The notes beneath the pieces were generated by a model. That model was not told the DNA's origin. It made no database searches and worked only from the letters and a program-made list of their open reading frames with translations. DNA of 64,000 bases from a virus: the IMG/VR virus record IMGVR_UViG_3300030098_001484, positions 1-64,000 of that record, one strand, 5' to 3'. The position numbers and the translations under genes were made by a program. Every line of letters begins with the position of its first letter. Position 1 is the stretch's first letter. Shown here one piece after another: positions 561-59,339 of this stretch.

Positions 561-575
561 AAGATTTCCTCTTAA

Positions 576-648
576 CACTCCGAGTAGGACTCGAACCTAC
601 GACCTACGGTTTAGAAGACCGTTGCTCTATCCACTGAGCTACCGGAGT
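576..648 (-). tRNA. tRNA-Arg (anticodon TCT)
   Basis: A full cloverleaf can be folded on the minus strand. The 7-bp acceptor stem pairs ACTCCGG with TCGGAGT (last pair G-U). There is a GCTC D-arm, a 5-bp anticodon stem ACGGT/ACCGT with loop CTTCTAA (anticodon TCT), and a T-arm GTAGG-TTCGAGT-CCTAC. The discriminator is G and CCA is not encoded. It would read AGA/AGG, common Arg codons in an AT-rich phage. It lies right after the structured non-coding region. Confidence 0.96.
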
Positions 649-684
649 ATTATACCATAAATAAATAGAAGTGTTAGTAAATAA

Positions 685-1425
685 ATAAAAAATTGTACCT
701 AAGACAAGATACCAGAGCCAAGGCCGATGGGACTACCGTTTACCCATAAGTCTTCCTCTTACGCCATCATATCTGTGGGATGGTCAGCATAAGGTAGACT
801 GCTGCTCCCCTTTGATCCATCCTAAGAAGGACTCTCACGTTTGGTTCACAACACCTTTGTCTCCAGATACCAAGACATATTCAGTCACAACTGCGTAACC
901 TGAGTTGCTATCTCAAGCTGATTCTTACGCATCTCTGATATCCTGTCTTGGATACAATAAATAGGGAGTGATAACCCAGATCCCTACTGGAAGGCTCTCC
1001 TTTAATCCGTACTGTGTCACCTAGAACAGCTACGAACCCCGCACATGGGGAATATTACACCGGCCTATTGTGCAGACCTGAACCTCTGCCGAGGCGTTGC
1101 ATATTATACCCCGCTAAGAATATAACATACTCCTTTACAGTCCTTCGGTTGTACACCCTTCACTGCTCGATTTCAAATCCTCCCTACTATGTGCAGTCCA
1201 GAGTATGTCGGACCTACATCGCTAGTAGGGAACGCTTTGGGCTTACATTCTATTTATACTCGCCCAAACGAGTGATCTTTTGACTCTCGGCGTTACAGCC
1301 TCACCTATGCCAACCAGCCCCATACCGTCCCCATCATAGGATAGGCCAAGGATTCTTCTAAGAGAGTGACACATGCAATCCTTGGTAAGTAGTCATCTCT
1401 CTGTGTTCGCAAGGGGAAACGAACA
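685..1425 (-). ncRNA. large structured non-coding RNA, GOLLD/ROOL-like in character
   Basis: About 740 nt without a credible gene on either strand, between a small CDS and tRNA-Arg. Read as minus-strand RNA it contains many strong helices: a 7-bp hairpin just after the upstream stop codon (about 1398-1425); a perfect 9-bp stem 1377-1385/1346-1354; a perfect 9-bp stem from TCCCTACTA to TAGTAGGGA (about 1225 to 1183); a 9-bp bulged helix GCCCAAA/TTTGGGC; and a 6-bp stem TAGGGA/TCCCTA near 962-986. A 23-bp helix between 933-955 and 695-717 has only one mismatch and three G-U pairs, and it closes a multibranched domain. Within that domain are TGCGTAA/TTACGCA, GGATGG/CCATCC and CAGCA/TGCTG stems. 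The end is followed by a run of six U (687-692). Giant ornate phage RNAs (GOLLD, ROOL) often lie beside tRNAs. Family membership here is inference; the structure is seen. Confidence 0.72.
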
Positions 1426-1728
1426 CTAAACTGTTTCTTTGTTCTTATGTTTAATGAACTTAAGTTGGGCGGTCGTGTCGCCCTTCCCATTCGCAGAACT
1501 GTCGCTATCACATATGTACCCACGTTCATGTAGCGCATCGAACGCCGACTCTAGTTCTTCTTCGTATGACCATTCTCCCCTACGCTTATAGCATACAAGG
1601 AAACGTCCGTGCATTGGGTGACACACAGACACTTGGTCATACCTAAACTCTACAATAAATCCAACATTTGAAAACTTATCAATAATACTAATCATCTCAG
1701 TTCTTTCTACCTGATCTACGGTTTCCAT
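1426..1728 (-). CDS. hypothetical protein, 100 aa
   Basis: A 100-residue protein that I do not recognise. It has a mixed alpha/beta composition, and its C-terminal third is charged and Lys-rich. The ATG at 1728 is chosen because AGAGAAAC lies upstream; the longer in-frame start would cover the whole preceding small basic gene. Its stop (TAG at 1426-1428) is followed at once by the first hairpin of the structured RNA region. The codons for residues about 77-82 (SSANGK) coincide with a 17-bp sequence repeated near 5380 and 5435. Confidence 0.5.
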   Translation of the reverse strand: METVDQVERTEMISIIDKFSNVGFIVEFRYDQVSVCHPMHGRFLVCYKRRGEWSYEEELESAFDALHERGYICDSDSSANGKGDTTAQLKFIKHKNKETV

Positions 1729-2296: not shown

Positions 2297-4423
2297 TCAC
2301 ATAAACATATTCTCCGATTGCAGAACCGTATCAATATCCAAGTCACCAAACTCAGGCAACTCAACACCGTACTGCTCAGCTAACGCCAACAACGGAGAGT
2401 TAAGATAAACAGCATGTGTAGCCTTGCGTATACCATCCCTAAAGATTTGCATGTGCATAGGCAACAGCCCACCACAATCATGGATGCTAATGATGTTCTT
2501 AACACCACGGGTAAGGCAGTAGATAATACACAACCGCATCACCAAAGCATCCAAGAAGTGTACAAAGTTAGGAGGTCCAGAAGTAATAGACTTCCTTACA
2601 TCAAGTACGTCTGTGTAAACGTAGAACGTAAGAGACAAGCAGTCCTCATCTCCGAAACATTTACTAGCCTTAAGTGTTCTCTCCTCAGTCTTGCTTCTGA
2701 AGTTCTCCATAACAAGACCATCAGGAGAAGTAATAGTCATTGCCTCACCATCTTCGCCCGCAACCTTGACAACCTTACCGATAAACTTCATAAAGGCTTC
2801 AATGGTCGGGCTTAACTTAAGCAACGACTTACGATAACGACTCGCCAGCTTCATGGCAATAGGAAACTGATCCTCAAACGGCACATCTAGCTTGCCGATA
2901 GGGGAGTCTGAGGCAGCAATAACTTTCCACTCTGGTTCATCTTCAGTACCAAAGTTATGCCAAGTCTTATCACCCATGAACTTCCTAGCAATAGCCAATG
3001 GCTTACCGCCGTATGGAATAATCATCACAGGATTCTTTGCAACTGTGGTAGTGTTAACCACATCCTCATTCTCAAGGAACACCTGACTAAACTCATCGTC
3101 TTCCCCTGCTTCCCAAGCACGACGGTTCTCATCACAGATATCTTTCCTGAAGTCGTGAATCTCACCGTTAGGGTTGTTGATAAGGTTTGTACGTCGGGCG
3201 TTAACCTCATCCCTAGTAGCAGCCGCAGTGTGCTGAAGGTTTGATGACACTTGGTCAAGCCTAATAGGCAAGTCCCAGTAACCGTCTTCCAAAGCATCAG
3301 CATATGCGTCACATGCACTAAAGCATTTGAAAGTACCGGCTCCCTTACCAAAGCCATCCCACCACAGATCATAATGCTTAAGCGGGTCTTCAGCAACAGC
3401 AAGGATACGGTCCTTATTGTTGTCAACCCACTCAACACGATGATCGAAGTGAAGTTTGTCCAACTTAACTCCGTCTGCTATAGGCAGTCCAGAACATGAA
3501 CTGGCGATACCAACCTTAGCCCAATACCAGTCATCGTCTGTCTTAAGAATCTGTCCGTTAGCAAAACGCAACAAACTAGAAGCCAGATCATTACCTTGCG
3601 GTGATAAGACATCGCAATAGTAATACATACGACCACGAAAGTCGATGTAAACAACCAGCCAGAAGGTCCGACCCTGCATCTCAGTAGCCACCTGTAAGGC
3701 AACACCATGAGCATACTTATGAATCTCATGTTCATAAGGCAACAGCGTATGCTTAGCCAAAGCTAAGGTACGATCTGAGATAACGTATGGCACGTCTTGT
3801 AGACCGTTCATCGCATCACAGATCCCTTGCTTTGTAACATTTTGCCACGTTCCGTGACTTATGCCGTGCCTAAGAGCATCAGTGAGATATCCACCCGGAC
3901 GCTCAATAGTATGAGGCACAGGCGGCACAACCATAGGGCGACGATTCATTCCAATCATACCCCAAAGGTCGTGTTCCTCAAGCATGTTCTTAAGTGTGCT
4001 AGTGAGCCTAACAACAGTGGTATCCCCATGCTTAGTGTGGTTAAGGTCGATAAACCCAACCGAACGACAGGCATGTATAAGATTCCAAGATATTGCTAGT
4101 CGATCCTCTCGATCCATGTTAGGTGCTAAAGTTAACAACCTGCGTGACACTTCATTCACTACAGGGTGTGCTTGAGCCGTATCACCTTCCTTGGAGACCT
4201 TATCCAGAGTGGCACATGACGCAATCATTGACACTTCTCTAAGGCCCATCTTAAGGACACGTTTAGCCCACTTAGGAGGCTGACTGAAGCCACTGATCAA
4301 ATCCTCCAGCCCTCCCTCAAGTTGGTCAACAATAGGATTAGGGTTAACACCCCTACCCATGATTTCTAACTCAAGGTTGCGCTGTTGGTCTAAAGCAGCA
4401 TCAGTAACAGTAACACATGACAT
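2297..4423 (-). CDS. divergent T7-type single-subunit RNA polymerase (RNAP 2)
   Basis: A 708-residue DNA-directed RNA polymerase of the T7/mitochondrial family. The DxRGR element is at residues 261-265 (DFRGRMYYY). The motif A aspartate is Asp390 (LDQVSSNLQH, equivalent to T7 Asp537), motif B has Lys463 and Tyr471 (T7 Lys631 and Tyr639), and motif C is IHDCGG with Asp649 (T7 Asp812). The catalytic set is therefore complete. Motif A reads DQVSSNLQH instead of the usual DGSCSGIQH, and the T7 Arg627 position is Thr, so it is clearly divergent. It is shorter than T7 RNAP (883 aa), mainly in the N-terminal domain. The start ATG at 4423 has AAGGGG upstream. A second, more canonical polymerase lies at the other end of the window, so this one probably reads a different promoter class. 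Confidence 0.93.
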   Translation of the reverse strand: MSCVTVTDAALDQQRNLELEIMGRGVNPNPIVDQLEGGLEDLISGFSQPPKWAKRVLKMGLREVSMIASCATLDKVSKEGDTAQAHPVVNEVSRRLLTLAPNMDREDRLAISWNLIHACRSVGFIDLNHTKHGDTTVVRLTSTLKNMLEEHDLWGMIGMNRRPMVVPPVPHTIERPGGYLTDALRHGISHGTWQNVTKQGICDAMNGLQDVPYVISDRTLALAKHTLLPYEHEIHKYAHGVALQVATEMQGRTFWLVVYIDFRGRMYYYCDVLSPQGNDLASSLLRFANGQILKTDDDWYWAKVGIASSCSGLPIADGVKLDKLHFDHRVEWVDNNKDRILAVAEDPLKHYDLWWDGFGKGAGTFKCFSACDAYADALEDGYWDLPIRLDQVSSNLQHTAAATRDEVNARRTNLINNPNGEIHDFRKDICDENRRAWEAGEDDEFSQVFLENEDVVNTTTVAKNPVMIIPYGGKPLAIARKFMGDKTWHNFGTEDEPEWKVIAASDSPIGKLDVPFEDQFPIAMKLASRYRKSLLKLSPTIEAFMKFIGKVVKVAGEDGEAMTITSPDGLVMENFRSKTEERTLKASKCFGDEDCLSLTFYVYTDVLDVRKSITSGPPNFVHFLDALVMRLCIIYCLTRGVKNIISIHDCGGLLPMHMQIFRDGIRKATHAVYLNSPLLALAEQYGVELPEFGDLDIDTVLQSENMFM

Positions 4424-4501
4424 AACCAATCCCCTTATTTGAAAGGTTATTTATTACGAGCCTTTTACTGACTTGCTCAGGTCAATACACAGTGTATTAA
4501 C

Positions 4502-9020: not shown

Positions 9021-9050
9021 CTCTCCCCCATGTACTCTTCATAGGTTTAT

Positions 9051-9070
9051 ATACTATTATACCCGGTTAT
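9051..9070 (-). promoter_or_regulatory. candidate phage RNAP promoter, copy 3
   Basis: The 20 bases here are identical to 32091-32110 and 52293-52312. On the minus strand the core reads ACCGGGTATAATAGTAT. It lies 15 bp after the stop of the giant virion gene, and its orientation leads to the holin-like gene. Flanks differ completely between the copies, as expected for a single-subunit RNAP promoter of about 20 bp. The part TATAAT also equals a bacterial -10 box, but no matching -35 is conserved. Confidence 0.75.
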
Positions 9071-9085
9071 CCGTCCATCGGCCTT

Positions 9086-12000
9086 CTAGGGGTTCTGAGG
9101 GCCGATTTTAAAGAAACTGTCCGGTAATCGAAGATACGTAGGCATCTCATAGATTGACTCGAATACATCAGTTTCCTTCTGCATTTCAAAGAACGGATTG
9201 AAGATAGGCTTCTCGGGTTTCTTGGCAGGGTTCTTATGCAGCGACTGTTGCATATACCGCTGTTTTTCCAAGGGGGTAGTGTTTGGGGTGTTCGATGGAA
9301 TTTTCGGCTGAAGACGCGGTGTAACGTGATCCTCGAAGTTCTGAAGGATAGTTTCTCTCCATACTCTCATAGCTTCGTCTGGCCTATTATTATCAATATC
9401 TTCTTTCATCATACTTGATAAAGCTAAGGCCAAGATTCTAGCTTGGTCCCGGTCATCAGGATTTACGTGATTAAAGAAGGCATCATTAATGGGAACCCAC
9501 CAGAATGCCTTGGTTGGGAACATGGCTTGATACAACAGATTGAAAGCATCACTAGCCTGAGCATCTCGCTCTCCAGACTTTAGGTCTCCCATTGTAGCAA
9601 TCCAGTCTTCCATGCCTACAGCTTTTGTAGCTTTGGTTCTGCCTTTTGTTAAGAAGTTGCCCTTACCCATACCTACCATTGCATTTGAGATCATCTTAAA
9701 TACGCCGGATGCTGGCATTTCTAGCGGATTGCTTCCATACGCAGGTTCACCTAACATTGGATTTACAACAGGTAAGACCGCCAGTTCTCTTACTATCTTA
9801 CTCCCCCATCCTAATACCGGAGCATGAGAACCCTTCTGGAATAGTTTAGCCCACCCATTTTCTTTCCATTCGGTTGCAATTTCTTCTGCTGATTTCTTAC
9901 CGGACTGAAGCTCCCTAACTTGCATATGTAACATCTCTAATGAAACAATACCTGCAATTAGAGCTAAGGCTTTTATGGCTCCTACTTCAGATGGATTCTT
10001 TTTCATATAAACATTAAAGAACGCTAAAGGATAAGTAGCATAGAAAGAGAATAATCTACCAAACCAATTCTTATTAAAGTGAGAATAAGAGGCTAATCCT
10101 CTCGGTTCTGGGGAAGCATCGTGAGCGTGCATTTCAATAAAGTTAATAAAACGATCAAACACATCCGTATACAGGTCTCTTTCTAACTTCCCAAACTGAT
10201 AATCAACGGAGTTCATTCGTTCAAACATAAGCGATTGATCCCAATTTGATTGGGTTGCTTCGCCCCATGTAAGAAGCTTTCTAACCATTGGCATCACATC
10301 TAGTCCACTGTCATCAACAACAAGCCCAGCCCTAAACCATCTCATCGCCATTTCATAGCTTAGTCCTTCTTTTCTAGCTAAGCCTTTAATGTATCGTCGT
10401 TTTGCTTTAGCGTCCGTTAGCGATTTAAATTTAATAGGATCAAATGCTAGATTAAACGCTTCAAGTTTATCTAAATTCTTAAGAGTATTATACTTAGCAT
10501 TACCAACCGCAATATTCTTAGTTAGGTTTATGACTTGGCGTAAGAACGTAAACTCTGATTGCATTTTAGCCGTGGCCTCTAAGAAATTATTAAGTTTTTC
10601 CATAGCTCCGTCTGTAGCGGTATACTTTCTATCTTTACTCCACATTAATTTCCAAAGGGATCTAATTCGATTACTCCATTTAATATCGTACTCTACTCGA
10701 TCATCATTCATAAACTTAGCTAAGCCAGATCTTTCAATGTTATCGAACATAAAGGCAGTACCCTCAAGATTGGTATTTAAGTTAGATGAAGATCTTGGGA
10801 TTCCCTTAAAGGCTGTACCTAAAGCATTCATTAACGCTCCAGCACTTCCTGATCTAGCAATAATAGCAAACGGTAATTCAACTAAAGCAACTGCTTGTGA
10901 AATACCGCTTCCAAAAATAGCCTGAGCAAGATTGTTCATTGCTTTTACTGCTGTATCAAATTTGATGTTTGCATCATATACAGGCGTTCCAATCATTTCC
11001 TTATAAAGCATTTCCATAAAATCGACAGTTTCTTCGAGTGCTTTTTTAGTGGCGTGATCAGCAATTTTCTTACCCTTTGGTCCGGCTATCTCGGTTAAGC
11101 TTGCAACCCTATCTCGCATTAAAGAAAAGACATCTTCAAACCGTAGGTTCTTAAGTTGTTCTCCGGTAAATGGAGAAGCAATTGCCATTGTTTGAAGCCA
11201 ATGATTTAATACATCTTGTGCATTAATTCTAGTTGCAGTAGTATTAGCGTAGTCCATAATAATCCGGTCCCACGACCAATCAAATTCTTTTAAGAATTCA
11301 GGATTATTTGCTAATTCTTCAGCAGAGAACACCCTTTCTTTTGATCCCATATTCGGTTGACCTATTTCATTTATGTACCTACGTTCTGCTCCAGCAACGT
11401 CTTGTCCAGCCTTAGAACCAGCAGCTTCGTGGTTTCTTCGCCTAGCCCAATTAATCATAGCTTCGTGTAATGCGGTTCGTTCTGGATTAATTCTTGCCCC
11501 CTTGGTATTTACATAATAACTAGTATCACCACCATAAGAAGCTTCTATTTTATCTCCAATAGAAATTGAATCCTCTGCTCCGCTATATTCAGCATTTAAG
11601 TTTTCTTCGCTAAATGTTTTAAATATTTCTGGCTTAGCCATAATAGGTTTAGTAGTATCAGGAGCTATAGCCTTAGCAGAAGTTTTTAACTCTTCAGGAG
11701 AGAACACTTGAATTTTACGACTCTTAGGTTTAAATACATTTGGTTCTCTTATTACAGAGATATCCAGAGCAGTCTTTGTCATAAATGGAGAACCTTCTTC
11801 AGTACCTACTCTAAATTGATTAGGTCCAAGCTTTTCTTGTAATTCATTAATAACCGCTGCTTCTCTTTGTTTAAGTTCTTTATATCGTTCAATGGATTCT
11901 TTATATAGCTGCCTCATTTTAAGAGTACGGGCTTGCATAGCCGAGTCTTGTTTAATAGGATTTCTTTCAACTGTAATTTGAGGATCCATCCACTGATCTT

Positions 12001-15000
12001 CAGCAGGCAATGTTTTATGAAGGTTTTCAATATCCCAAACTTCTTGCTTAATTGCTTGTAGCTCTTTAGCTAATGTTATGCTCTCAATAACAATTGGAGA
12101 ATCCTTTTGAGATCTTAGTTCTGCTATACGTGCATTGTAATCAGCTAACAGATAACCGGGAGACTTTAAACTCCACTCTCCCTTGGTATGATCCCACTGC
12201 TCTCTACCTTTCTTTTTACCCGCTTGTTTGACAACCTCTTGCTTTTTAGCTTCTAAGTAAGCAATCTTTTCATCAATTGTTTTATTCTTAACTTCAGGTG
12301 TTGGCTCAACTTTAGTAATTGTAATACCATGTAGTTCTTCTGCTCGTTCCCGACCTCTAGTTGTTAATCTCCAACCTCGTGCTGAACGATCATATTCAAT
12401 GAAGCCGGTCTTTTTTAAGTGCTGGAATAAATTGTTTTGATAAGAAGCTACATTTTTTCCAATATCATCGCTGTAAGTCTTTGGAGCAAAACGACTTATA
12501 GCTGGAATATCTTGTTTGGTAACGGGCTGAAAACTAGGATCAGCACTAACTAACGGCCTAATTTCCCCGAAGAATTGTTTAATAAAGTCAGCTTTAGTAA
12601 AGGTTGCATTTGTAGGATGGATTCTAAACCACTCAATAATATTTTTTTCTAGTGCCGTTTGAGGCTGGAATAATAAAGGCTTAGCAGGAACAAATACTTT
12701 TTTATCTTGATACTGTGTTAAGTTATCTAAAGCTTTCTTTAAGATACGTCTCTTATACATTAGAAGATTTCGAGTATAGTAATTACCTGTAGTAAATTCT
12801 TTTTTAAACGCCGGAACTCTATTATCGTTTGCGTAATTTTTAGAGAACCAATTAATTTTATTTACCATAGATGCAGAATCTCCAATATATCTCATTTGAG
12901 GTTCCATGAGTTGTTTATCTACAGTATTAAGTTCCTTAAGTAAAGAATCAAAAGGATTATCTACAAATCGGACAACTCCCTCAACAAACGTAGAATAAGC
13001 CTCCGCATAATTCTTGTAATGTCCTTGTAATAAAGATTCGGTTTCTTTCATGGTTTCGAACATAACTAAAGCTCTAAAGTTACCGATCATTGTGTCTTCT
13101 ACAATATCATTAACTTGCTGCTCAGTTAGTTCTTTATATTTTGGATTCTTCTTTTTCTTTTCAGCTTCTTCTTTTAAAAGTCTCTTTCTAATTTGTTCAG
13201 CAGATTCGCTTACAGAATCAATCATTCTTGTTAAAGTAGAGTAAGTTCCTTTAATATTTTTAATTACGTCTCTTTCGATTGCCCCTATTGTTAGGTGCGT
13301 AGCAAAGGTTACATATTCTACCTCTTTACCGTAATGACCGCCCTTACTGGTTGGCATATCATATGGTAACAATAGTTGCTTTTCAAGCTCTGCTAAACTT
13401 GAAATTGGCTTAACAAAAGTATAACCATCGTTTTCGTTTAAAGCTCTGTTTACCGATATCTTAGTAAACTTAGTTGGTCCTCCATCGGCTGCTCTTGGTT
13501 TCCACTCAGGATATAAAGGAATAATATCCTGAATGGGCTTAATAATTTTTACTCCCTCCCATTTAATGCTCTTTCCAAAAATACTATTTAAAGAAATTGC
13601 TCGTCTTCTAGACGGGAGGTTTAATTTAGATTCTCGTAATTCACTTTCATATATCGCTTCTCGTAATCGCTGAATCCAACGATTAATGTTTTCCCTTAGA
13701 ACCCGTACCTCTTGATCTCTATGCACAGGGCGGGAAATTCCAGTACGTCCGTCAGTTTTCATAGTTGTAGTATATAAATATTGCTTATTAATGGGTCTAT
13801 TAATAGAATCAAAATAACCAATTGCAGATGTATCTCCAGACTTAGCAATCTGTTCTTGAACATAGTTTGCATGCCAGTTCACAAGTTTTCTAACATCAAT
13901 TTCCTGTTCTTGTTTTAACTCTGCTCTACGTTGCTGTATGTCTTCGGCCCTAAACTTAAAGAAACTGTTAGGATTATCTTTCCATTTATTAGCACTTTCG
14001 TCCCACATGGCAGCGTCGGCATCGCCTTCAACAAGTAACTTAACCAAAAGATTAATTGAACGTCTTTCGTTTCGTTCTGCTGCACTTATACCTTTTTCAG
14101 TGGGATCAAAGAAATCTACTAACATTTTATTTAGACTTTGCCGTAACTCGTCATTTATCATCCTGTCTTCAGGACGCTCAGTTCGACTAGTCATTCGTGG
14201 CCTATCGGACACAGACATTCCTAATCTTTCGGCTTCTTCTGGGCTGATGCTAGATATTTTGCCCCTACCTATTTCAGAAGATCGTTTTCTTTTTCGGAAG
14301 GTTTCTTTGTATCCTGCCGCAACAGCGTACATAAAGCGACCTAATGGTACTTCTGAGTTGGCTCCAACACCGCCAAAGGTTTTGTCTTCTGACTTAAGCC
14401 TTCGAATTTTTCTCCACTTACCGTCCTCTCCCTTTTGTAATTTATGTGTAAACATTTCTCTACTAGCTCGGTGTAAAGCCATAGAGTCTTTAAATCCTAT
14501 AGAACTTGATAGTGGAAACTCTTTTATTAACTCTTCGGTTGTTAAGTCAATAAGCTTCTTAGGCTTACCTTTTTCATTCTTAACAATTTCTGATGTAGCC
14601 TTTTCAAACTGATCTTCAGTTAAATACCATAAACGCTTTAAGGCTGTAGGTTTACTGGTTGCTAACCAGAACAACTCTTCGAATACATCATCAAGTAAAT
14701 CTGCATCTACATCATGTCCTGCGGCTAACTCAGCACGGATAATAGAACTAATGCGTTGTTTAATGGCATATTCAATTCCCGGTTCGGTTTCCCATTCTTG
14801 TAAACCATACTTATCAGTTCTGCCCTTTTTACCCACAGCTTTTACTTTAGTTGCGTTTCTATTATATAAGAAGAATAAATCGCCAACAGTCATTGTTTCT
14901 TTGTTCTCAGCACCCGGAACAAAGTTGTAAAACTTATCATAAATATCGGCTTCATGCTTTGCTTCTTTAGCTTCTTTAGCTGCTATTTCTTTTTCAAGTG

Positions 15001-18000
15001 CTTTCTTTCGTAGTATTCGTTTTCTCTTACCGCCAAGATTAGCTGCCATTGCGGCTTGGTGCATGGTTAATTCAGCCGCTTCAGCTAGATGGAACTTTCC
15101 TGTTGTATCAAAACCAAATACGGAACCTTCGCCATCCAAGAGGTTTCTAAGCATTTCCAATCTTTTAATTTCCCAACGAAGCATTTCAATTTTTGGATGA
15201 TTAGGATCATTGATTCCAAGCTTTGTTCGTTTTTCATGTAAGGAATTTAATAGTTTTTGAAGTTCTTGTTGATACGCTCGACGGTTAGGATCTACAAACT
15301 TTTCTATTTCAATTAAAGTAACAATTTTATTCCACTGTCTTTCAATAGCTTTGGCCTTACCTTCAATAGGTTTGGCCCAATCCTTTTGAGCTATTTTACC
15401 GGGCTTTAATTGTTCCTTTCGTGTAATAGGAGAAATCCATCCTAAGTAAGATTCCATAACTTTAATCATTTTCTTAGCATTTTTTTGGATAGCAGGATGA
15501 GGAAGCTCAGCTTGTTTTTTATAAAACTCTAAAGTATTGCGTAATCTGGTTTCATTAATTAAAGTTGAATCGCCCTTTAATTTTAAAAGGTGTGGAGGAC
15601 CGTCTGTTAATTGAAGGATGCTAGGTAACATCTCTGCTTTCTTTTGTCTAACTTCCTTCCACAGTTTAACTCGTTGATCAACCACTGCTTTAAAGTCTCC
15701 GTCTCCGGTTAATAAAGCATACTCTTGCATCATAGTAAAGTATTCGTCTATATATGTTTTAACTTCTACTTCAACATCTTTAGATATAGTAAAGCGTCCT
15801 CGGCTTACATCACTTATTTCTTCTAAGATTCTCATTTCTTGATAGTTAAGGGCTGTTAGTTCTGCTTGGGTAGCTGTAGCATCTACGGCACTAGGCTGTT
15901 CAGTCCTAATAGCAGAATCTTCTAAGCTTTCTAGCTCTCTCTTGTGTTGTATAATTCTTTCGTCTAAATTAGCAACTGTTTTTGTAGCTAATGCTTGTGC
16001 TTCTTTAGCCTTTAATTGAGCTTGCTTTTTACCCATTGCTTTGTATTCTTTCTTAGAAATACCAAGAATTTTTCGAACTTGTTTCTTCGTAAGATCTGCT
16101 TCTTGTTTTTCGTGGGGTAACTCTGCAAGTACAGCATCAATGGTTTCATCTGTCTGTACAATTTCTATAGACGAATCATTGGGCTGATCTATTTCAGCTA
16201 CATCTTCAGGCTTGTCTACTTTCTGTTTCTTATATCCAATTGTAGGACCACGACGATAGACTTCATTTAAGTCTACATCAGTATCCCTTTCGTTTCTTAG
16301 CATAATATCATCAAGATTATCCCAAACCATGTCTGTTTCTAAGTCTGCTTTATATCCATCAATTTCGCCTTGAATATTGTCAGACCAAGCTGAAAACGGT
16401 TTATTATCTTTAGATGAATAATTACCATGCCAGATATCAATAAATGGATATCTTTCTTTAATTGCTCGTTCAATTGCAAGTCTAGTTATTCTTTGCTCTG
16501 GTTTGTTTTCCATAGCTGCATTTAAACTTGCATCAACCATAGCTTTTTTAATGGAGCCTATATCCGTTAGGATTTGCTGAGTAATGGTTTCTCCTCCTAC
16601 GGATACCCATCCCTCCGACAACCACGTTTGCATCTTTAGATTCCACTCTTCTGCATCATTAGCTTTCATCTCATTCCATTTTTTATTAACTTCTACTTCC
16701 TTACGATATTCTAAGAACAGTTCATTTCTTTCATCAAGGTCGAAGTAATTATGGTCTGGATAATATTTTTCAAGCCAGCTTTTGAAATGAGGAGAATCTG
16801 CGCCAGCTTCTGCTATAGCTTGTGTTAAGGCTTCATAATCTTCTGCTGAAGGATCGCCTGTTTTGTTTACTACATTTCTCCAACTTCTAAAATCTATATT
16901 TGCTTCTAACTCAGAGTTGGCTGCAACCGCCTTTAAAACATTTCGTCGATTGTAATCAGCCGCTTCTTTAATGGCTTCTCGAATTAAATGCACAACAATT
17001 TTAGAAACATCAAAATTATTAGCAGCACCTTCCGACACAATCTGTTTAAGCATGGCGTTGTTGTTAACAAAATTGATAATATCTAGAATAGATAAGCCAT
17101 TGTTTATAAACTCTTGTTCATTAATTCCCAACTCTCTTCGACCAACTTTTCTGCCAGTAAGAGCTTCTACTGTATCAAAGAGATGCTGCTCACCTACAGC
17201 ATAAAAGTCTTGTTCGGGGAACAGAGGATCTGGTTTATCTAGGTTTTTAGTAAACATTTCACCAATGTTTTCACCTTGTTCTCGACCAGTAAATGGTGTA
17301 ACTGTGGTTATTTCGTCTATTGGAATAGGTTTTTCTAATCCCTCAACCTTAATACTAATGATTGTTGGCTCAGGAATTAATCCTTGTTCTACGTCGTTTG
17401 CGGCTTCTCTCAGAGTAGTAGCTAATTCTAAGTTTCCTTCAGCTTCGTATCTATCCGCTGATGTGCGCATGTCATCAATGTTTCTAGTGGTAGCATAATC
17501 AGCGTTTTCGACAATACGTGCGTTTTCAAACAAAGGATTGTCTACATTGTGGATTACAACAGAACCAACATCAATAGGTTTATCAGGAGTTTCAACAAAA
17601 CCGGGAAACTCTAACCTATCGTGTGATACCTTTACGTTGGCTTTTACTGGGTTTCCATTAATTTCTAGTACATTGCCCTTGTGTTTAATTCCCGGCTCAA
17701 TAATATACGTAACTCTTGGTTCTCCTGAATCAGATAAATTCTTTGGAAATACTCTATTTCTTTCTGAAACAGACATTAACTCAGGATCAAACCTATCACC
17801 AACATTATCTATGAGTTCCATTTCATTCTTTGCTAAAAACTCATCTAATCTTTTTTGAATTTTTTCTTGTAGCTCTAACTCTAATGCTGCAAGAGTTTCG
17901 GTTTTTACCTTATTTTCAGGGGTTTTTGACTTAATTTTTTCTATGGCTTCAAGTTGGTTTCTTCTAATATTCCATAGAATCATAGCCGCAGTTCGCGTAT

Positions 18001-21000
18001 CTTCTAAACTAAATCGTCCTTCTCCATCAATAGGTTCTAGCCTATCAAAGTATTCATTAGCTGTCTTTTTTCTTCTTTCTAAGGTTTCAACAATAGGCGT
18101 AATAGGATCTACTTTTTGTTCTTTGATTAACGATAGTGGAGCGTCTTCTTTAGCAACAACAGGTAAACCTTTATTTTGTCGTTTATTATCTGCTGCTGCT
18201 TGAAGGGTACGTAAATCATCAGTTGTAAATCCGGTTTGATTATGATAATCCCACACCTGCTTTGACAGAGTAGCTTGGTTTATATCAGGACTATAGAAAA
18301 TAGATCCTTCAGGAATACCGCTAATACCTACTACAGAACCTTTCTCAGTTAATAAAGAAACATGACCGATTGCTTCAAGCTCAACAATAGAAACAAATCC
18401 TGATTCTAAATAACTGTTTGCTTTAATGTGGTTGCCTGCTGTTCCTAAGCTAATTACAGATTCAGGGTTATCGTTGATCATACTCTGAGATAATGGCACA
18501 TATCCTTCAGGATTACTGCTTTTAGTAAGCTGATTAGTGTCTACACCTCTTTGATAGTTTCTCATTAAGTAATCATCAATTTGAATAAAGACATCAGTAA
18601 AGTGTTGAGCAATAAGCTCCACATCTAAATGATCTATATTTCCCATTTCATTACCTAAAGCTTCTCTAACCCATTCTTTTATATTAGCTCTCTTAATTTT
18701 GTTTACTCTAGCTAATGCTATTAATTCTTCAAAGACCGGGAAAACTTCTTCCGGTAAGGCTTCTTTAGCTCTGTGTAAACGGGCCACAACAATCGAAGCT
18801 TCTCGTTTAGCTTTTTGTTTTGCGTGCCAAACACTTTGGTTTCGCCCTGTTGCGTTTAGATCATCAACTAAAAATTCGTGGGTATTATCTAAAATTCTAC
18901 CTAATGTTCTTAGTTCATATAAGGTAGAATAATAGACATCTGATTTACTAGAGCCTAGCTCAGCAACGGCAGAAACCATTCTGGTCAACTTAGAGCGTCG
19001 TAAAGCCTCGTCTAATACTTCAGCATTTTTAGCGTGGTTTCCTGTAGGATCTTGCATTCGCTTAAGGAGAGCAGAAAGAACTTCTTTACGTAGTTCTTGG
19101 CCTTCCATTGTTTCGTCTTGTATTCTCTTAACAAGCTTAGCGTCTGCTTCGTCTTGTAAAGCTTTCCTGCTTTTTGTGCTTTTTCTAGGATATGCTTTAT
19201 CCATTTCTTGTATCGCACTATCAACTAGTTTGTTTTGAGCGACAATCTCACTCATAGGAGTATCTCTAGTTTCTAAAAGCTTTAAGTTTTCAACTGCATC
19301 AAACAACTTAACTAACTCAGGTGTTGTGTAAGTATAGTCTCTAAATCTTAAACTAGGTGCTAAGTCTTCAGGGAACTTAGGAAAAGCTTCTCCACCATTT
19401 CCTTTTTCTAAAAAGTTAACTAAATCAGCTTCAGTTCGTTTGAATTTACGATAAGCCTCTCGAAACTTTTTACTGTCTACGCCATGCTTTTCTTTCATCT
19501 TTTCCGCTGTAGCTCTACGATTGTTTAATTTAGTTGTTAAGTTATTGTATCTTGTCCACGATTCTCTAGCTGCCACATCTGTAGGAGCAGCAGTATTAAA
19601 ATCTCTTGGCTTTGGAGTCGGAGATCGCAAGGAATCAACTTCGCTTACGGGTTTTAATAACCCTCTTTCTTCCATTGCGTGTTTTCCATCGGCGGTATTT
19701 CTAGCCTTTCTTTCAGCAGAAGACGCAATCTTATTACCGTTTTGCTTTTTCTTTAATTTAATAAAGGCCATAACTTCTTTTTCGATAACTTCACGATTTA
19801 CTTTATGACCACCAGAACGATAGTGTATATCTTTTAACAAGTTTGCAATTTCGTTTAAGGTAGAATGATGGCCTTCAATTAAGTTTCTATCTAAGAATCT
19901 AGCAAAAGCTTCTCCTTCTCCTCCAGTCATATGATCTACAAAAGAAGATACCGTAATCATACCATCTTCCCAACCCATATGAGAAACCAATCCTTCAAAG
20001 GTTCCGTCCATTGGAGAATCTGTAGATATTCCCGCCATATGTTTTAACTGATTTTGAACCCAATGAGGATGGTTAAAGCCTATTTTCTTAGCGTCTTTTA
20101 TTCCCTTAAAGATTTGACCTCCGAGAAACCCATCCATAAAACCAGTCATAGCAAAACCAAATCCACCCATTGTTCCCATTGTAAAAGCTAATTCGCCCAA
20201 ACTAAAACTATAATCGTGATTTCCTAGGCCATTTATAAAGTCTAATCTTTGTCTAGCATCTTCTTGTTGACGTAAGTTCATTCCTAAACCATACGCTGCA
20301 CCCCAACCAGCACCAACAGCGGAGCGTCCAGCTAATCCACCTAAAGTTTTAGCACCCTTCATAAAGGCTAAAACTTCTAAAGTTTCTCCGACTGCGACCA
20401 TTGGATAACCCAGCATTTTATTTATAAATGCTTGTGATTTAATTTGTGTATTAGTTAAAGTTGCTAATCGAGAATCCTTAACAAACCTAGCTCCCCAGAC
20501 TCCTTGTTTAGTATTAAACAAAGTGGGTATTAATGAACCGTCTGCCATTAAAGCTTTAGTATCTTTTAAACTTAAAGCAACATCGTCTCCTGTTTTAGAA
20601 ATACCAGAAGCCGGTCCCTTCCAACCCTTAGTTCTTGTAGCCCGAGTTGCAACTAATTGCCACTGATTTTTAGGATTACCAAATCCACCCCACAAACGAG
20701 GATTTAATTTTCTTCTTAAGGGTACGCCCATATGGCGACGAACTCCTTGGGTAACAAACTTTCCAGATGTTTGGGCTAAATCTATTACTTCTCCGGTGGT
20801 TCTATGAATTAATCTTGGATTAACGTACTGACCTTTTTGAGCGGCTTGAAGAAATTTACTTAGTCTAGCGGTTTGTTCTGTGCTTTTTAATAAAGCTTGT
20901 CCACCCGTTTTGGTTACTGCACCTACTCCCGCTAATCCGAAAGTTAAGGGAATAGTAGCATAAAGCTCCCAATCCATTCCCATATCAAATATCATATCTC

Positions 21001-21745
21001 CCCACCAATCAGCGGTTTCAGATGTTTTACCGGCTTCTCTCATTTGCATATCATATCGAGTTTTACGCATCATTTCTAAAGACGTATCTAATACATGACG
21101 ATTAACCCAATATAAATAATCGTTTTTATTGGCTGCTCCTTTGCCCCACTCTTGAGGATTAATTCCCTGCTGTTCTAAGTATTCCCTTATAAGGTCTGCT
21201 TCAATCTTGTTTCCTCGTCTTTTAGGAAAAGCTTCATCTAACGCAGTAATCCATCCATCAGTCTTATAGTCAAATGTAGGGTCTAAACCATCATGCATGG
21301 CATCAATACGGCTCCAATCTGTATTTAAAAACCATTCTAGATCGTCGCCCAATCCCTCAAACTTCATTGTACCCGAGTATCCTCCAGCCGTAGCAGGAGT
21401 TAAACCGGCCAAAGATTCATGGAACTCAACGGAATATGGGTTAGCTCCGAGCATTCCTGACATATATTGAGGCTGTGATCTTAGGTTTAACCATCGCCAA
21501 TAATCATTCATATCTTCAGTACTAAAAATTTCTGGAGGAAGGATGCCTCTATGAAAGTCCCAGTCAAGTCCAGAACGAACAGAGAAATCTCCTTCTTTGT
21601 TTATATTCATTACAGGAATAGGCCAAAGAGTTTTTTCTGCTTCTTCTTTTGTCGCTTGTATATAATCAACGCGATTAACTACTGGAATAGGCTTCCGCGT
21701 TAAGGTTCTTTCATAATCTCTAAAGCTTCCTAATGGATATTCCAT
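9086..21745 (-). CDS. giant internal virion (DNA ejection) protein, 4219 aa
   Basis: One uninterrupted reading frame of 4219 codons, about 470 kDa. From position and character it corresponds to the largest ejection protein of T7-type podoviruses (T7 gp16, 1318 aa), but it is over three times longer. Visible features are a hydrophobic segment at about 259-280, a Gly/Ala-rich hydrophobic zone at about 500-590, very long charged helical regions through the middle, a winged-helix-like patch around residue 3020-3110, and hydrophobic helices in the last quarter (about 3530-3570 and 3860-3890). I found no lytic transglycosylase motif and no RNA polymerase motif. Its ATG overlaps the upstream stop (TAATG) with AGGAG ahead. 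It is AT-rich compared with the capsid gene. Its likely role is forming the channel across the cell envelope during genome ejection. Confidence 0.8.
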   Translation of the reverse strand: MEYPLGSFRDYERTLTRKPIPVVNRVDYIQATKEEAEKTLWPIPVMNINKEGDFSVRSGLDWDFHRGILPPEIFSTEDMNDYWRWLNLRSQPQYMSGMLGANPYSVEFHESLAGLTPATAGGYSGTMKFEGLGDDLEWFLNTDWSRIDAMHDGLDPTFDYKTDGWITALDEAFPKRRGNKIEADLIREYLEQQGINPQEWGKGAANKNDYLYWVNRHVLDTSLEMMRKTRYDMQMREAGKTSETADWWGDMIFDMGMDWELYATIPLTFGLAGVGAVTKTGGQALLKSTEQTARLSKFLQAAQKGQYVNPRLIHRTTGEVIDLAQTSGKFVTQGVRRHMGVPLRRKLNPRLWGGFGNPKNQWQLVATRATRTKGWKGPASGISKTGDDVALSLKDTKALMADGSLIPTLFNTKQGVWGARFVKDSRLATLTNTQIKSQAFINKMLGYPMVAVGETLEVLAFMKGAKTLGGLAGRSAVGAGWGAAYGLGMNLRQQEDARQRLDFINGLGNHDYSFSLGELAFTMGTMGGFGFAMTGFMDGFLGGQIFKGIKDAKKIGFNHPHWVQNQLKHMAGISTDSPMDGTFEGLVSHMGWEDGMITVSSFVDHMTGGEGEAFARFLDRNLIEGHHSTLNEIANLLKDIHYRSGGHKVNREVIEKEVMAFIKLKKKQNGNKIASSAERKARNTADGKHAMEERGLLKPVSEVDSLRSPTPKPRDFNTAAPTDVAARESWTRYNNLTTKLNNRRATAEKMKEKHGVDSKKFREAYRKFKRTEADLVNFLEKGNGGEAFPKFPEDLAPSLRFRDYTYTTPELVKLFDAVENLKLLETRDTPMSEIVAQNKLVDSAIQEMDKAYPRKSTKSRKALQDEADAKLVKRIQDETMEGQELRKEVLSALLKRMQDPTGNHAKNAEVLDEALRRSKLTRMVSAVAELGSSKSDVYYSTLYELRTLGRILDNTHEFLVDDLNATGRNQSVWHAKQKAKREASIVVARLHRAKEALPEEVFPVFEELIALARVNKIKRANIKEWVREALGNEMGNIDHLDVELIAQHFTDVFIQIDDYLMRNYQRGVDTNQLTKSSNPEGYVPLSQSMINDNPESVISLGTAGNHIKANSYLESGFVSIVELEAIGHVSLLTEKGSVVGISGIPEGSIFYSPDINQATLSKQVWDYHNQTGFTTDDLRTLQAAADNKRQNKGLPVVAKEDAPLSLIKEQKVDPITPIVETLERRKKTANEYFDRLEPIDGEGRFSLEDTRTAAMILWNIRRNQLEAIEKIKSKTPENKVKTETLAALELELQEKIQKRLDEFLAKNEMELIDNVGDRFDPELMSVSERNRVFPKNLSDSGEPRVTYIIEPGIKHKGNVLEINGNPVKANVKVSHDRLEFPGFVETPDKPIDVGSVVIHNVDNPLFENARIVENADYATTRNIDDMRTSADRYEAEGNLELATTLREAANDVEQGLIPEPTIISIKVEGLEKPIPIDEITTVTPFTGREQGENIGEMFTKNLDKPDPLFPEQDFYAVGEQHLFDTVEALTGRKVGRRELGINEQEFINNGLSILDIINFVNNNAMLKQIVSEGAANNFDVSKIVVHLIREAIKEAADYNRRNVLKAVAANSELEANIDFRSWRNVVNKTGDPSAEDYEALTQAIAEAGADSPHFKSWLEKYYPDHNYFDLDERNELFLEYRKEVEVNKKWNEMKANDAEEWNLKMQTWLSEGWVSVGGETITQQILTDIGSIKKAMVDASLNAAMENKPEQRITRLAIERAIKERYPFIDIWHGNYSSKDNKPFSAWSDNIQGEIDGYKADLETDMVWDNLDDIMLRNERDTDVDLNEVYRRGPTIGYKKQKVDKPEDVAEIDQPNDSSIEIVQTDETIDAVLAELPHEKQEADLTKKQVRKILGISKKEYKAMGKKQAQLKAKEAQALATKTVANLDERIIQHKRELESLEDSAIRTEQPSAVDATATQAELTALNYQEMRILEEISDVSRGRFTISKDVEVEVKTYIDEYFTMMQEYALLTGDGDFKAVVDQRVKLWKEVRQKKAEMLPSILQLTDGPPHLLKLKGDSTLINETRLRNTLEFYKKQAELPHPAIQKNAKKMIKVMESYLGWISPITRKEQLKPGKIAQKDWAKPIEGKAKAIERQWNKIVTLIEIEKFVDPNRRAYQQELQKLLNSLHEKRTKLGINDPNHPKIEMLRWEIKRLEMLRNLLDGEGSVFGFDTTGKFHLAEAAELTMHQAAMAANLGGKRKRILRKKALEKEIAAKEAKEAKHEADIYDKFYNFVPGAENKETMTVGDLFFLYNRNATKVKAVGKKGRTDKYGLQEWETEPGIEYAIKQRISSIIRAELAAGHDVDADLLDDVFEELFWLATSKPTALKRLWYLTEDQFEKATSEIVKNEKGKPKKLIDLTTEELIKEFPLSSSIGFKDSMALHRASREMFTHKLQKGEDGKWRKIRRLKSEDKTFGGVGANSEVPLGRFMYAVAAGYKETFRKRKRSSEIGRGKISSISPEEAERLGMSVSDRPRMTSRTERPEDRMINDELRQSLNKMLVDFFDPTEKGISAAERNERRSINLLVKLLVEGDADAAMWDESANKWKDNPNSFFKFRAEDIQQRRAELKQEQEIDVRKLVNWHANYVQEQIAKSGDTSAIGYFDSINRPINKQYLYTTTMKTDGRTGISRPVHRDQEVRVLRENINRWIQRLREAIYESELRESKLNLPSRRRAISLNSIFGKSIKWEGVKIIKPIQDIIPLYPEWKPRAADGGPTKFTKISVNRALNENDGYTFVKPISSLAELEKQLLLPYDMPTSKGGHYGKEVEYVTFATHLTIGAIERDVIKNIKGTYSTLTRMIDSVSESAEQIRKRLLKEEAEKKKKNPKYKELTEQQVNDIVEDTMIGNFRALVMFETMKETESLLQGHYKNYAEAYSTFVEGVVRFVDNPFDSLLKELNTVDKQLMEPQMRYIGDSASMVNKINWFSKNYANDNRVPAFKKEFTTGNYYTRNLLMYKRRILKKALDNLTQYQDKKVFVPAKPLLFQPQTALEKNIIEWFRIHPTNATFTKADFIKQFFGEIRPLVSADPSFQPVTKQDIPAISRFAPKTYSDDIGKNVASYQNNLFQHLKKTGFIEYDRSARGWRLTTRGRERAEELHGITITKVEPTPEVKNKTIDEKIAYLEAKKQEVVKQAGKKKGREQWDHTKGEWSLKSPGYLLADYNARIAELRSQKDSPIVIESITLAKELQAIKQEVWDIENLHKTLPAEDQWMDPQITVERNPIKQDSAMQARTLKMRQLYKESIERYKELKQREAAVINELQEKLGPNQFRVGTEEGSPFMTKTALDISVIREPNVFKPKSRKIQVFSPEELKTSAKAIAPDTTKPIMAKPEIFKTFSEENLNAEYSGAEDSISIGDKIEASYGGDTSYYVNTKGARINPERTALHEAMINWARRRNHEAAGSKAGQDVAGAERRYINEIGQPNMGSKERVFSAEELANNPEFLKEFDWSWDRIIMDYANTTATRINAQDVLNHWLQTMAIASPFTGEQLKNLRFEDVFSLMRDRVASLTEIAGPKGKKIADHATKKALEETVDFMEMLYKEMIGTPVYDANIKFDTAVKAMNNLAQAIFGSGISQAVALVELPFAIIARSGSAGALMNALGTAFKGIPRSSSNLNTNLEGTAFMFDNIERSGLAKFMNDDRVEYDIKWSNRIRSLWKLMWSKDRKYTATDGAMEKLNNFLEATAKMQSEFTFLRQVINLTKNIAVGNAKYNTLKNLDKLEAFNLAFDPIKFKSLTDAKAKRRYIKGLARKEGLSYEMAMRWFRAGLVVDDSGLDVMPMVRKLLTWGEATQSNWDQSLMFERMNSVDYQFGKLERDLYTDVFDRFINFIEMHAHDASPEPRGLASYSHFNKNWFGRLFSFYATYPLAFFNVYMKKNPSEVGAIKALALIAGIVSLEMLHMQVRELQSGKKSAEEIATEWKENGWAKLFQKGSHAPVLGWGSKIVRELAVLPVVNPMLGEPAYGSNPLEMPASGVFKMISNAMVGMGKGNFLTKGRTKATKAVGMEDWIATMGDLKSGERDAQASDAFNLLYQAMFPTKAFWWVPINDAFFNHVNPDDRDQARILALALSSMMKEDIDNNRPDEAMRVWRETILQNFEDHVTPRLQPKIPSNTPNTTPLEKQRYMQQSLHKNPAKKPEKPIFNPFFEMQKETDVFESIYEMPTYLRLPDSFFKIGPQNP

Positions 21746-32077: not shown

Positions 32078-32090
32078 ATATCTACTCCTT

Positions 32091-32110
32091 ATACTATTAT
32101 ACCCGGTTAT
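32091..32110 (-). promoter_or_regulatory. candidate phage RNAP promoter, copy 2
   Basis: An identical 20-bp copy of the motif (minus-strand core ACCGGGTATAATAGTAT). It sits in the 36-bp gap between the tail-spike stop and the small-terminase start. The Shine-Dalgarno AAGGAG begins immediately after the motif, so a transcript starting near its 3' end would have a very short leader. It would drive terminase and internal virion genes. Confidence 0.78.
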
Positions 32111-52275: not shown

Positions 52276-52292
52276 ACTTGCTCCTTTTTGAT

Positions 52293-52312
52293 ATACTATT
52301 ATACCCGGTTAT
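52293..52312 (-). promoter_or_regulatory. candidate phage RNAP promoter, copy 1
   Basis: An identical 20-bp copy of the motif (minus-strand core ACCGGGTATAATAGTAT). It overlaps the last bases of the exonuclease gene and lies 17 bp before the dUTPase start. It would open the dut-nrdJ-virion unit. Two bases after the core are also shared with the copy at 9051-9070. Confidence 0.78.
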
Positions 52313-58732: not shown

Positions 58733-58911
58733 ACAGCGTAAGCTCTTTCTCTTGTCTTTATGGTTGCTTTATTATGTCGGTCTGTTGCCTTCCACAAACC
58801 TCTTGAAAAACCAGCGTGTTCTCCATGTCCATAACCTTGACGATAACCAATTTTATAACAGAGATATCCAGTCAACCCTGCTAGAAGAACTGATCCCACC
58901 GCTAATAGCAT
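58729..58911 (-). CDS. small single-pass membrane protein (60 aa)
   Basis: A 60-residue protein: one transmembrane helix at residues about 2-20 (LLAVGSVLLAGLTGYLCYKI), a Gly/Tyr/His linker (GYRQGYGHGEHAG), and a basic tail. The ATG at 58911 has GGAG. The Gly-Tyr repeat after the helix resembles that of the next but one gene (KVGYRDGYISCG), so the two may be distant paralogues. Function unknown. Confidence 0.55.
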   Translation of the reverse strand: MLLAVGSVLLAGLTGYLCYKIGYRQGYGHGEHAGFSRGLWKATDRHNKATIKTRERAYAV

Positions 58912-58915
58912 TATG

Positions 58916-59140
58916 TTAGCTCCTTAAACTACTAATAGTTTTTGCCAAGTCTTCAATCTCTGCAATACTCTGATACGCAGCGACATCTCCTCCGGTATAT
59001 TCATAATTGAGATTACCCTTTGGATCTAGGACACCTACCTCAAAGGTTCCTTCATCTGAATAAGTACCGGGTCCGCATATGATGGACAATGCCCACCCGT
59101 TTTTGAAATCCATACGATCACGAAACTCTTTTCTTTCCAC
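58916..59140 (-). CDS. hypothetical protein (74 aa), GTG start
   Basis: A 74-residue acidic soluble protein, probably a small alpha/beta fold (WALSIICGPGTYSDEGTFEV, then a C-terminal helix IAEIEDLAKTISSL). The GTG at 59140 is chosen for its GAGAGGG; an ATG nine codons later is an alternative. The 5' end overlaps the previous gene by 23 bp. No family assigned. Confidence 0.52.
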   Translation of the reverse strand: MERKEFRDRMDFKNGWALSIICGPGTYSDEGTFEVGVLDPKGNLNYEYTGGDVAAYQSIAEIEDLAKTISSLRS

Positions 59141-59321
59141 AATTTTCCCTCTCTTTGTCTGGAATTAAAATCTTACTTTTACATGATATACATTTCCAAA
59201 CCCCCGTTTCCCATCCACAAGAAATATAACCATCTCTATAACCAACTTTAAGAGCAATTTTATATATCATATAAGGAAACATAATACCATTTACTAATAA
59301 CACAATTTCATACCAAGACAT
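59118..59321 (-). CDS. small membrane protein with CxxC tail (67 aa)
   Basis: A 67-residue protein: a transmembrane helix at about 3-24 (WYEIVLLVNGIMFPYMIYKI), then KVGYRDGYISCGWETG, then Cys-Ile-Ser-Cys (about 44-47) and a later Cys, with a basic end. A metal site or redox pair after the helix is possible. AGAGG precedes the ATG. It is the first gene after the two tRNAs. Role unknown. Confidence 0.55.
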   Translation of the reverse strand: MSWYEIVLLVNGIMFPYMIYKIALKVGYRDGYISCGWETGVWKCISCKSKILIPDKERENCGKKRVS

Positions 59322-59339
59322 ATTAAAGTATCCTCTTAA

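Follow-up and report, generated by a model that had tools for sequence, protein, structure and literature searches.

The stretch of viral DNA analyzed here (the window, 64,000 nt) covers positions 1 to 64,000 of a source record of 66,999 bases. The record looks circular, since its last genes continue the gene order found downstream of the RNA in relatives. The phage encodes two single-subunit RNA polymerases (2297-4429 and from 62204 on), together with portal/head-tail adaptor, scaffold-like, terminase, DNA polymerase, and primase/helicase genes. A 4219-aa open reading frame (ORF) at 9086-21745 on the minus strand takes up about a fifth of the genome. On the minus strand, the gene order runs from polymerase A through small ORFs and a region lacking any credible gene (1428-690) to tRNA-Arg. 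The features of this region and its flanks are as follows.

1484-1500, minus strand: promoter-like motif AGTTCTGCGAATGGGAA, with the first hairpin of the RNA about 57 nt downstream
1426-1419 with 1410-1403, minus strand: hairpin H1, the first element of the 5' domain, with a U-A to C-G compensatory change between the window and the relative L002
1402-1392 with 1370-1361 (stem 1) and 1385-1377 with 1354-1346 (stem 2), minus strand: crossing helices, a possible H-type pseudoknot
1178-1273, minus strand: Pistol-type domain, with P1 at 1273-1270/1261-1258 and a pseudoknot at 1267-1262/1242-1237
1232-1223/1189-1180, minus strand: extended P3 of the Pistol-type domain
1179-1178, minus strand: G-A junction of the Pistol-type domain, with putative cleavage between the two nucleotides
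963-1177, minus strand: variable middle, not alignable with relatives, holding a 14-bp hairpin
690-962, minus strand: manA-like 3' domain, identified by a match to RF01745, a folding z-score of -4.32, and two-sided changes
955-933 with 717-695, minus strand: long helix that closes the 3' domain, with one mismatch in 23 positions
891-888 (GUUG) with 726-723 (CGGC), minus strand: manA pseudoknot, which varies among relatives
687-692, minus strand: U-run in the sequence directly after the closing helix, a possible 3' end
575-649, minus strand: tRNA-Arg (UCU), called by ARAGORN and Rfam

The original prediction placed a giant structured non-coding RNA in the roughly 740 nt upstream of the tRNA, where it saw no credible gene. 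The longest ORFs in 1428-690 are 89 aa (plus strand) and 77 aa (minus strand), and neither is credible, since relatives have a different sequence in the middle and the lengths of the indels at the ends are not multiples of three. No relatives were recovered with the protein of the adjoining ORF 1426-1782. One further long gap was looked at, 58733-59335; it was rejected as a second non-coding RNA because small ORFs fill it, which makes it coding, and its folding is unremarkable (z -1.1).

The 23-position helix described in the original prediction occurs exactly as given, with one mismatch (C-A) and three G-U pairs, and the two perfect 9-bp stems are also present, namely CCAAGGAUU/AAUCCUUGG (stem 2 of the crossing helices) and UCCCUACUA/UAGUAGGGA. 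With one mismatch allowed, the longest stem in the region spans 26 positions, compared with a maximum of 21 in 200 dinucleotide-preserving shuffles, and the long helix exceeds chance. The folding-energy z-score is -3.0 for the whole region, and by part it is -4.32 for the 3' domain, -2.5 for the 5' domain, and -0.83 for the middle. The predicted wealth of strong helices is therefore found at both ends, but not in the middle, which folds no better than chance in the window phage (z -0.8). The L002 middle, unrelated to that of the window, does fold strongly by itself (z -4.83).

The nearest relatives are three IMG/VR contigs (L002-L004) that are identical in the RNA region, and a fourth contig, L005, whose RNA is 99.7% identical to that of L002. 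The polymerase of L002-L004 is 60% identical to that of the window. The L002 group has the same strand and the same order as the window, with polymerase, small ORFs, a 5' domain with Pistol, a middle, a manA-like domain, and tRNA-Arg. The tRNA neighborhood noted at the outset, tRNA-Arg(UCU) at 649-575 on the minus strand, is real and is conserved at the same place in L002-L005. Nucleotide identity between the window and L002 is about 77-79% in the 5' and 3' domains, and the middles are unalignable. The 3' domain and its closing helix also occur in a third phage, G001 (L027/L035), which gave no Pistol match. Protein searches with the RNA polymerase recovered only the L002 group, because this gene diverges too fast.

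The 3' domain resembles manA RNA. The Rfam model RF01745 aligned over its full length (positions 1-192 of 192) to 909-717, with 26.8 bits and an E value of 7e-5 in a 751-nt stretch. This does not reach the gathering cut-off of 55.2 bits, so we call the domain manA-like and not a member of RF01745. The conserved manA core GUGACUGAAUA...AAGGUG is exact at 888-848, and the last hairpin is also kept in the RF01745 alignment. Judged by this alignment, 962-690 is a divergent manA-type RNA lying below the Rfam threshold.

Covarying helices among homologues, which had been proposed as a check of the original prediction, were found in this domain. Across the window, L002, and G001, 19 of 70 pairs have changes on both sides and 95.1% of cells are paired, and none of 500 shuffles reached either figure. 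Slid structures gave about 40% paired cells; the consensus structure was derived from the same three sequences and this control alone flatters it, which leaves the two-sided changes as the stronger argument. Four of these lie in the inner 14-pair helix of the closing helix, both strands of which change length in relatives. The covariation supports the manA-like fold. Furthermore, the manA pseudoknot occurs as 8 distinct strand pairs over 13 loci with 32 of 32 pairs formed, and only 6 of 20000 permutations were equally good. This pseudoknot had been considered doubtful, and it is now supported by covariation across these loci.

A manA core pattern derived from the window matched 16 viral stretches. 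These comprise the four of the L002 group, L027 (a divergent relative), and 11 above the Rfam manA cut-off, ten of them at 153-182 bits and one a contig-end fragment at 56.8 bits. In cellular genomes (257 billion bases), the same pattern matched 12 times, and by Rfam none of these is manA.

The 5' domain opens with hairpin H1 and the crossing helices, which have three compensatory pairs in stem 1 and one in stem 2, with all cells paired in the two phages. Between the window and L002, every named pair of the domain is kept, with five two-sided changes, crossing helices included. Covariation resting on these two independent sequences lends the 5' fold modest support. Downstream, RF02679, the Pistol model, scores 42.4 bits over 1273-1212, exceeding its cut-off of 34.5. 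The first 48 nt of the Pistol domain are identical in the window and L002, as is a 25-nt block upstream of the Pistol core. P1, the P1-loop pseudoknot, and P3 form all their pairs in both phages, but these pairs hardly vary and so give no covariation evidence. After the two-nucleotide junction, P2 would pair GAAU with UUUG in the window (right shoulder 1177-1174), where two of four pairs are Watson-Crick, and GAAU with AACU in L002, where no contiguous pairs form. Because P2 is weak in the window and unformed in L002, we refer to a Pistol-type fold and not to a proven ribozyme. The G-A junction and the state of P2 make self-cleavage doubtful and a non-cutting role possible, though the core is identical in both phages.

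Upstream of the RNA, the promoter-like motif at 1500-1484 overlaps the 3' end of ORF 1426-1782. The pattern AGTTCTGC[GC]AATGGGAA has three copies in the window (1500, 5441, and 5383, all minus strand), the latter two of which precede the polymerase-A gene cluster with a spacing of 58 nt. The three matching sites of L002 carry AGTTCTACCAAAGGG[GA], and two of them are likewise 58 nt apart. The copies have changed in step across both phages and end in GGGA, as at T7-class start sites. This suggests a phage-polymerase promoter from which transcription could start at the GGGA (about 1488), although part of the conservation of the copy near the RNA may stem from the protein, since that copy falls within coding sequence. 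A separate motif, ATAACCGGGTATAATAGTATA, has three exact copies at gene boundaries (window 9050-9070, 32090-32110, and 52292-52312, minus strand) and is probably a second promoter class of the window phage. At the other end of the RNA, the U-run noted in the original prediction is present at 692-687. It is not conserved in L002, which has a ribosome-binding site and a 38-aa ORF there instead. Just upstream of tRNA-Arg (677-649) lies a TATAAT-type promoter-like site with a match of 10/12.

Pistol and manA-like RNAs recur together in other phages. In G002 (L009) they lie 1 kb apart, and in G006 (L013/L036) manA is found 57 nt upstream of Pistol. Inspection by eye also showed Pistol followed by a manA-like core or last hairpin in L012 and L038, and a manA-like RNA in L048, which has no Pistol. 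A downstream protein common to G001 and G006 fetched 37 phages, among which a manA-like RNA was found only in G006, G001, and G032/L048 (the last by eye). In a nucleotide search of named phages, the only matches of note were short Pistol matches in Tenacibaculum phage Gundel_1 and Microcystis phage MaeS. A search of papers accessible without subscription found none treating "manA RNA" and "pistol" together.

Several other RNA elements were seen in these phages. Two unrelated phages (L014 160-760 and L039 2441-1960, minus strand) have Pistol followed by at least 260 nt without a same-strand ORF of 60 aa, and other large RNAs may start with Pistol. Type II hammerhead ribozymes were found at L048 1051-1116 and 1530-1598 and at L009 1586-1656, in two phages with manA-like RNAs. 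Downstream of Pistol in L036 (2532-2350) and L016 (2278-2060), both on the minus strand, a T-arm-like hairpin precedes a D-arm-like hairpin, and the outer strands form a long helix with compensatory changes between the phages (z -2.2 and -2.9). This element, which was not called by ARAGORN, is a tRNA-like fold in permuted order. At the end of the RNA middle of L002 (11230-11335) stands a tRNA-like T-arm, GGAGGGUUCGAUUCCCUCU, which a 9-bp helix may enclose; ARAGORN under relaxed settings reported a degenerate tRNA-Cys there. The T-arm-like hairpins and a weak tmRNA score in L002 raised the idea of a tmRNA, which we rejected: the score is just 14.5 bits over 17 positions, and the relaxed ARAGORN runs report tmRNA everywhere. 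A compact tmRNA match over the cut-off (63.6 bits) does occur in a 130-kb phage contig, at L012 10544-10624 (minus strand), about 2.7 kb downstream of a Pistol ribozyme.

Taken together, the sequence comparisons show that the region encodes a modular, conserved and structured minus-strand RNA, with a 5' domain that has a Pistol-type end, a middle that can be replaced, and a 3' domain of manA-like type that the long helix closes. Its conserved position and covariation support that part of the original prediction which placed a large, structured non-coding RNA next to a tRNA gene of the phage. We think it somewhat better than an even chance that this is a phage-transcribed, stand-alone modular RNA of about 740-800 nt that works as RNA. 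One phage single-subunit RNA polymerase would start the transcript at the GGGA motif (about 1488), and the 3' end would be set by the helix and U-run (about 686) or by RNase P trimming at the tRNA. The product, about 0.8 kb long, would accumulate as an RNA of its own. The Pistol domain would either cut at 1179/1178 to give a middle-plus-manA RNA of roughly 0.5 kb or serve as a non-cutting structural part. Since the gene next to the manA-like domain differs between phages, the function would lie in the RNA itself, or in the manA fold protecting processed ends, rather than in the control of one gene.

A cis-acting 5' leader, either a riboswitch or an mRNA stabilizer, with Pistol trimming the 5' end of the leader, is the rival reading that fares best, and we consider it unlikely. 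manA RNAs have been proposed as riboswitch candidates in the 5' UTRs of phage genes (PMC2864571), and cyanophage manA examples lie within about 50 nt of ORFs. Likewise, in L002 and G001 a ribosome-binding site and then an ORF follow within about 40 nt after the domain. In the window, the controlled unit would be tRNA-Arg and ORF 237-578. However, the feature just after the manA-like domain is tRNA-Arg in the window, a 38-aa ORF in L002, a 57-aa ORF in G001, and Pistol in G006, and it is mainly because of this lack of a conserved downstream gene that we favor a stand-alone RNA. The window adds to this, as its manA-like domain is followed by a U-run and then by a tRNA with its own promoter-like site.

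It is quite improbable that the region is a decaying set of independent mobile RNA elements (ribozyme, manA, and tRNA) at a recombination hot spot, with no joint function. Such a history would fit the unrelated middles, the different order in G006 (manA, then Pistol), and the L002 Pistol without P2, but the 48 nt of Pistol core and the 25-nt upstream block are identical despite polymerases that are only 60% identical, and compensatory change keeps the manA-like fold. The class first suggested, a GOLLD or ROOL giant RNA or a distant member of one, is very improbable in spite of the size, the phage location, the neighboring tRNA, and a conserved 3' part with a variable remainder as in GOLLD (PMC12286853), as the conserved 3' part aligns to manA instead and neither model matches: with E values up to 10, GOLLD (RF02032) gave nothing in the window phage and nothing in three relatives at their RNA loci, ROOL (RF03087) likewise gave nothing in the region or those loci (a less firm negative, being without a positive control), and full Rfam scans were also negative. 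The earlier idea of a distant or new member survives in so far as the RNA is a distant member of other kinds, with a manA-like 3' half and a 5' half ending in a Pistol-type fold.

Returning to the stand-alone RNA, we propose a new class of large phage RNA only tentatively, with slightly more doubt than belief; it would combine manA-type and Pistol-type folds, have its own phage-polymerase promoter, and act on its own. If this is true, the manA "riboswitch candidate" would be one face of a general phage RNA module, and some Pistol folds would be kept as non-cutting scaffolds. What the sequences point to is a composite phage RNA with manA-like and Pistol-type domains, known from few independent sequences and with a manA score below the Rfam threshold. 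The manA motif, a riboswitch candidate since 2010, has yet to be explained, as has the purpose that Pistol ribozymes serve in phages. Both folds in one conserved phage RNA give a concrete object for testing both questions, and a warning that manA may not be simply a leader of metabolic genes.

The closest known systems each share part of this design. Like GOLLD (RF02032; PMC12286853), the window RNA is a large phage RNA near a tRNA with a conserved 3' part and a variable remainder, but it has no sequence or structure match to GOLLD. Like ROOL (RF03087; PMC12286853), it is a large phage RNA near tRNAs, but without a model match. With Pistol (RF02679; PMC4604425), it shares P1, the loop-junction pseudoknot, the conserved core, P3, the two-nucleotide junction, a score above the cut-off, and a phage location, as for many Pistols. 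Unlike known Pistols, its P3 is extended with a long folded loop, the junction is G-A instead of G-U, and P2 keeps only two Watson-Crick pairs in the window and does not form in L002. With manA RNA (RF01745; PMC2864571), it shares the GUGACUGAAUA core, the multistem body, the last hairpin with conserved arms, the phage location, and the same pseudoknot, which is marked with a question mark in Weinberg et al. 2010 (PMC2864571). It differs in scoring 26.8 bits against a cut-off of 55.2, in its much longer closing helix, and in its pseudoknot strands, which are GUUG/CGGC in the window and GGAG/CUCC in known manA. Furthermore, the window domain sits inside a larger RNA and does not look like the short 5' UTR of a metabolic gene.
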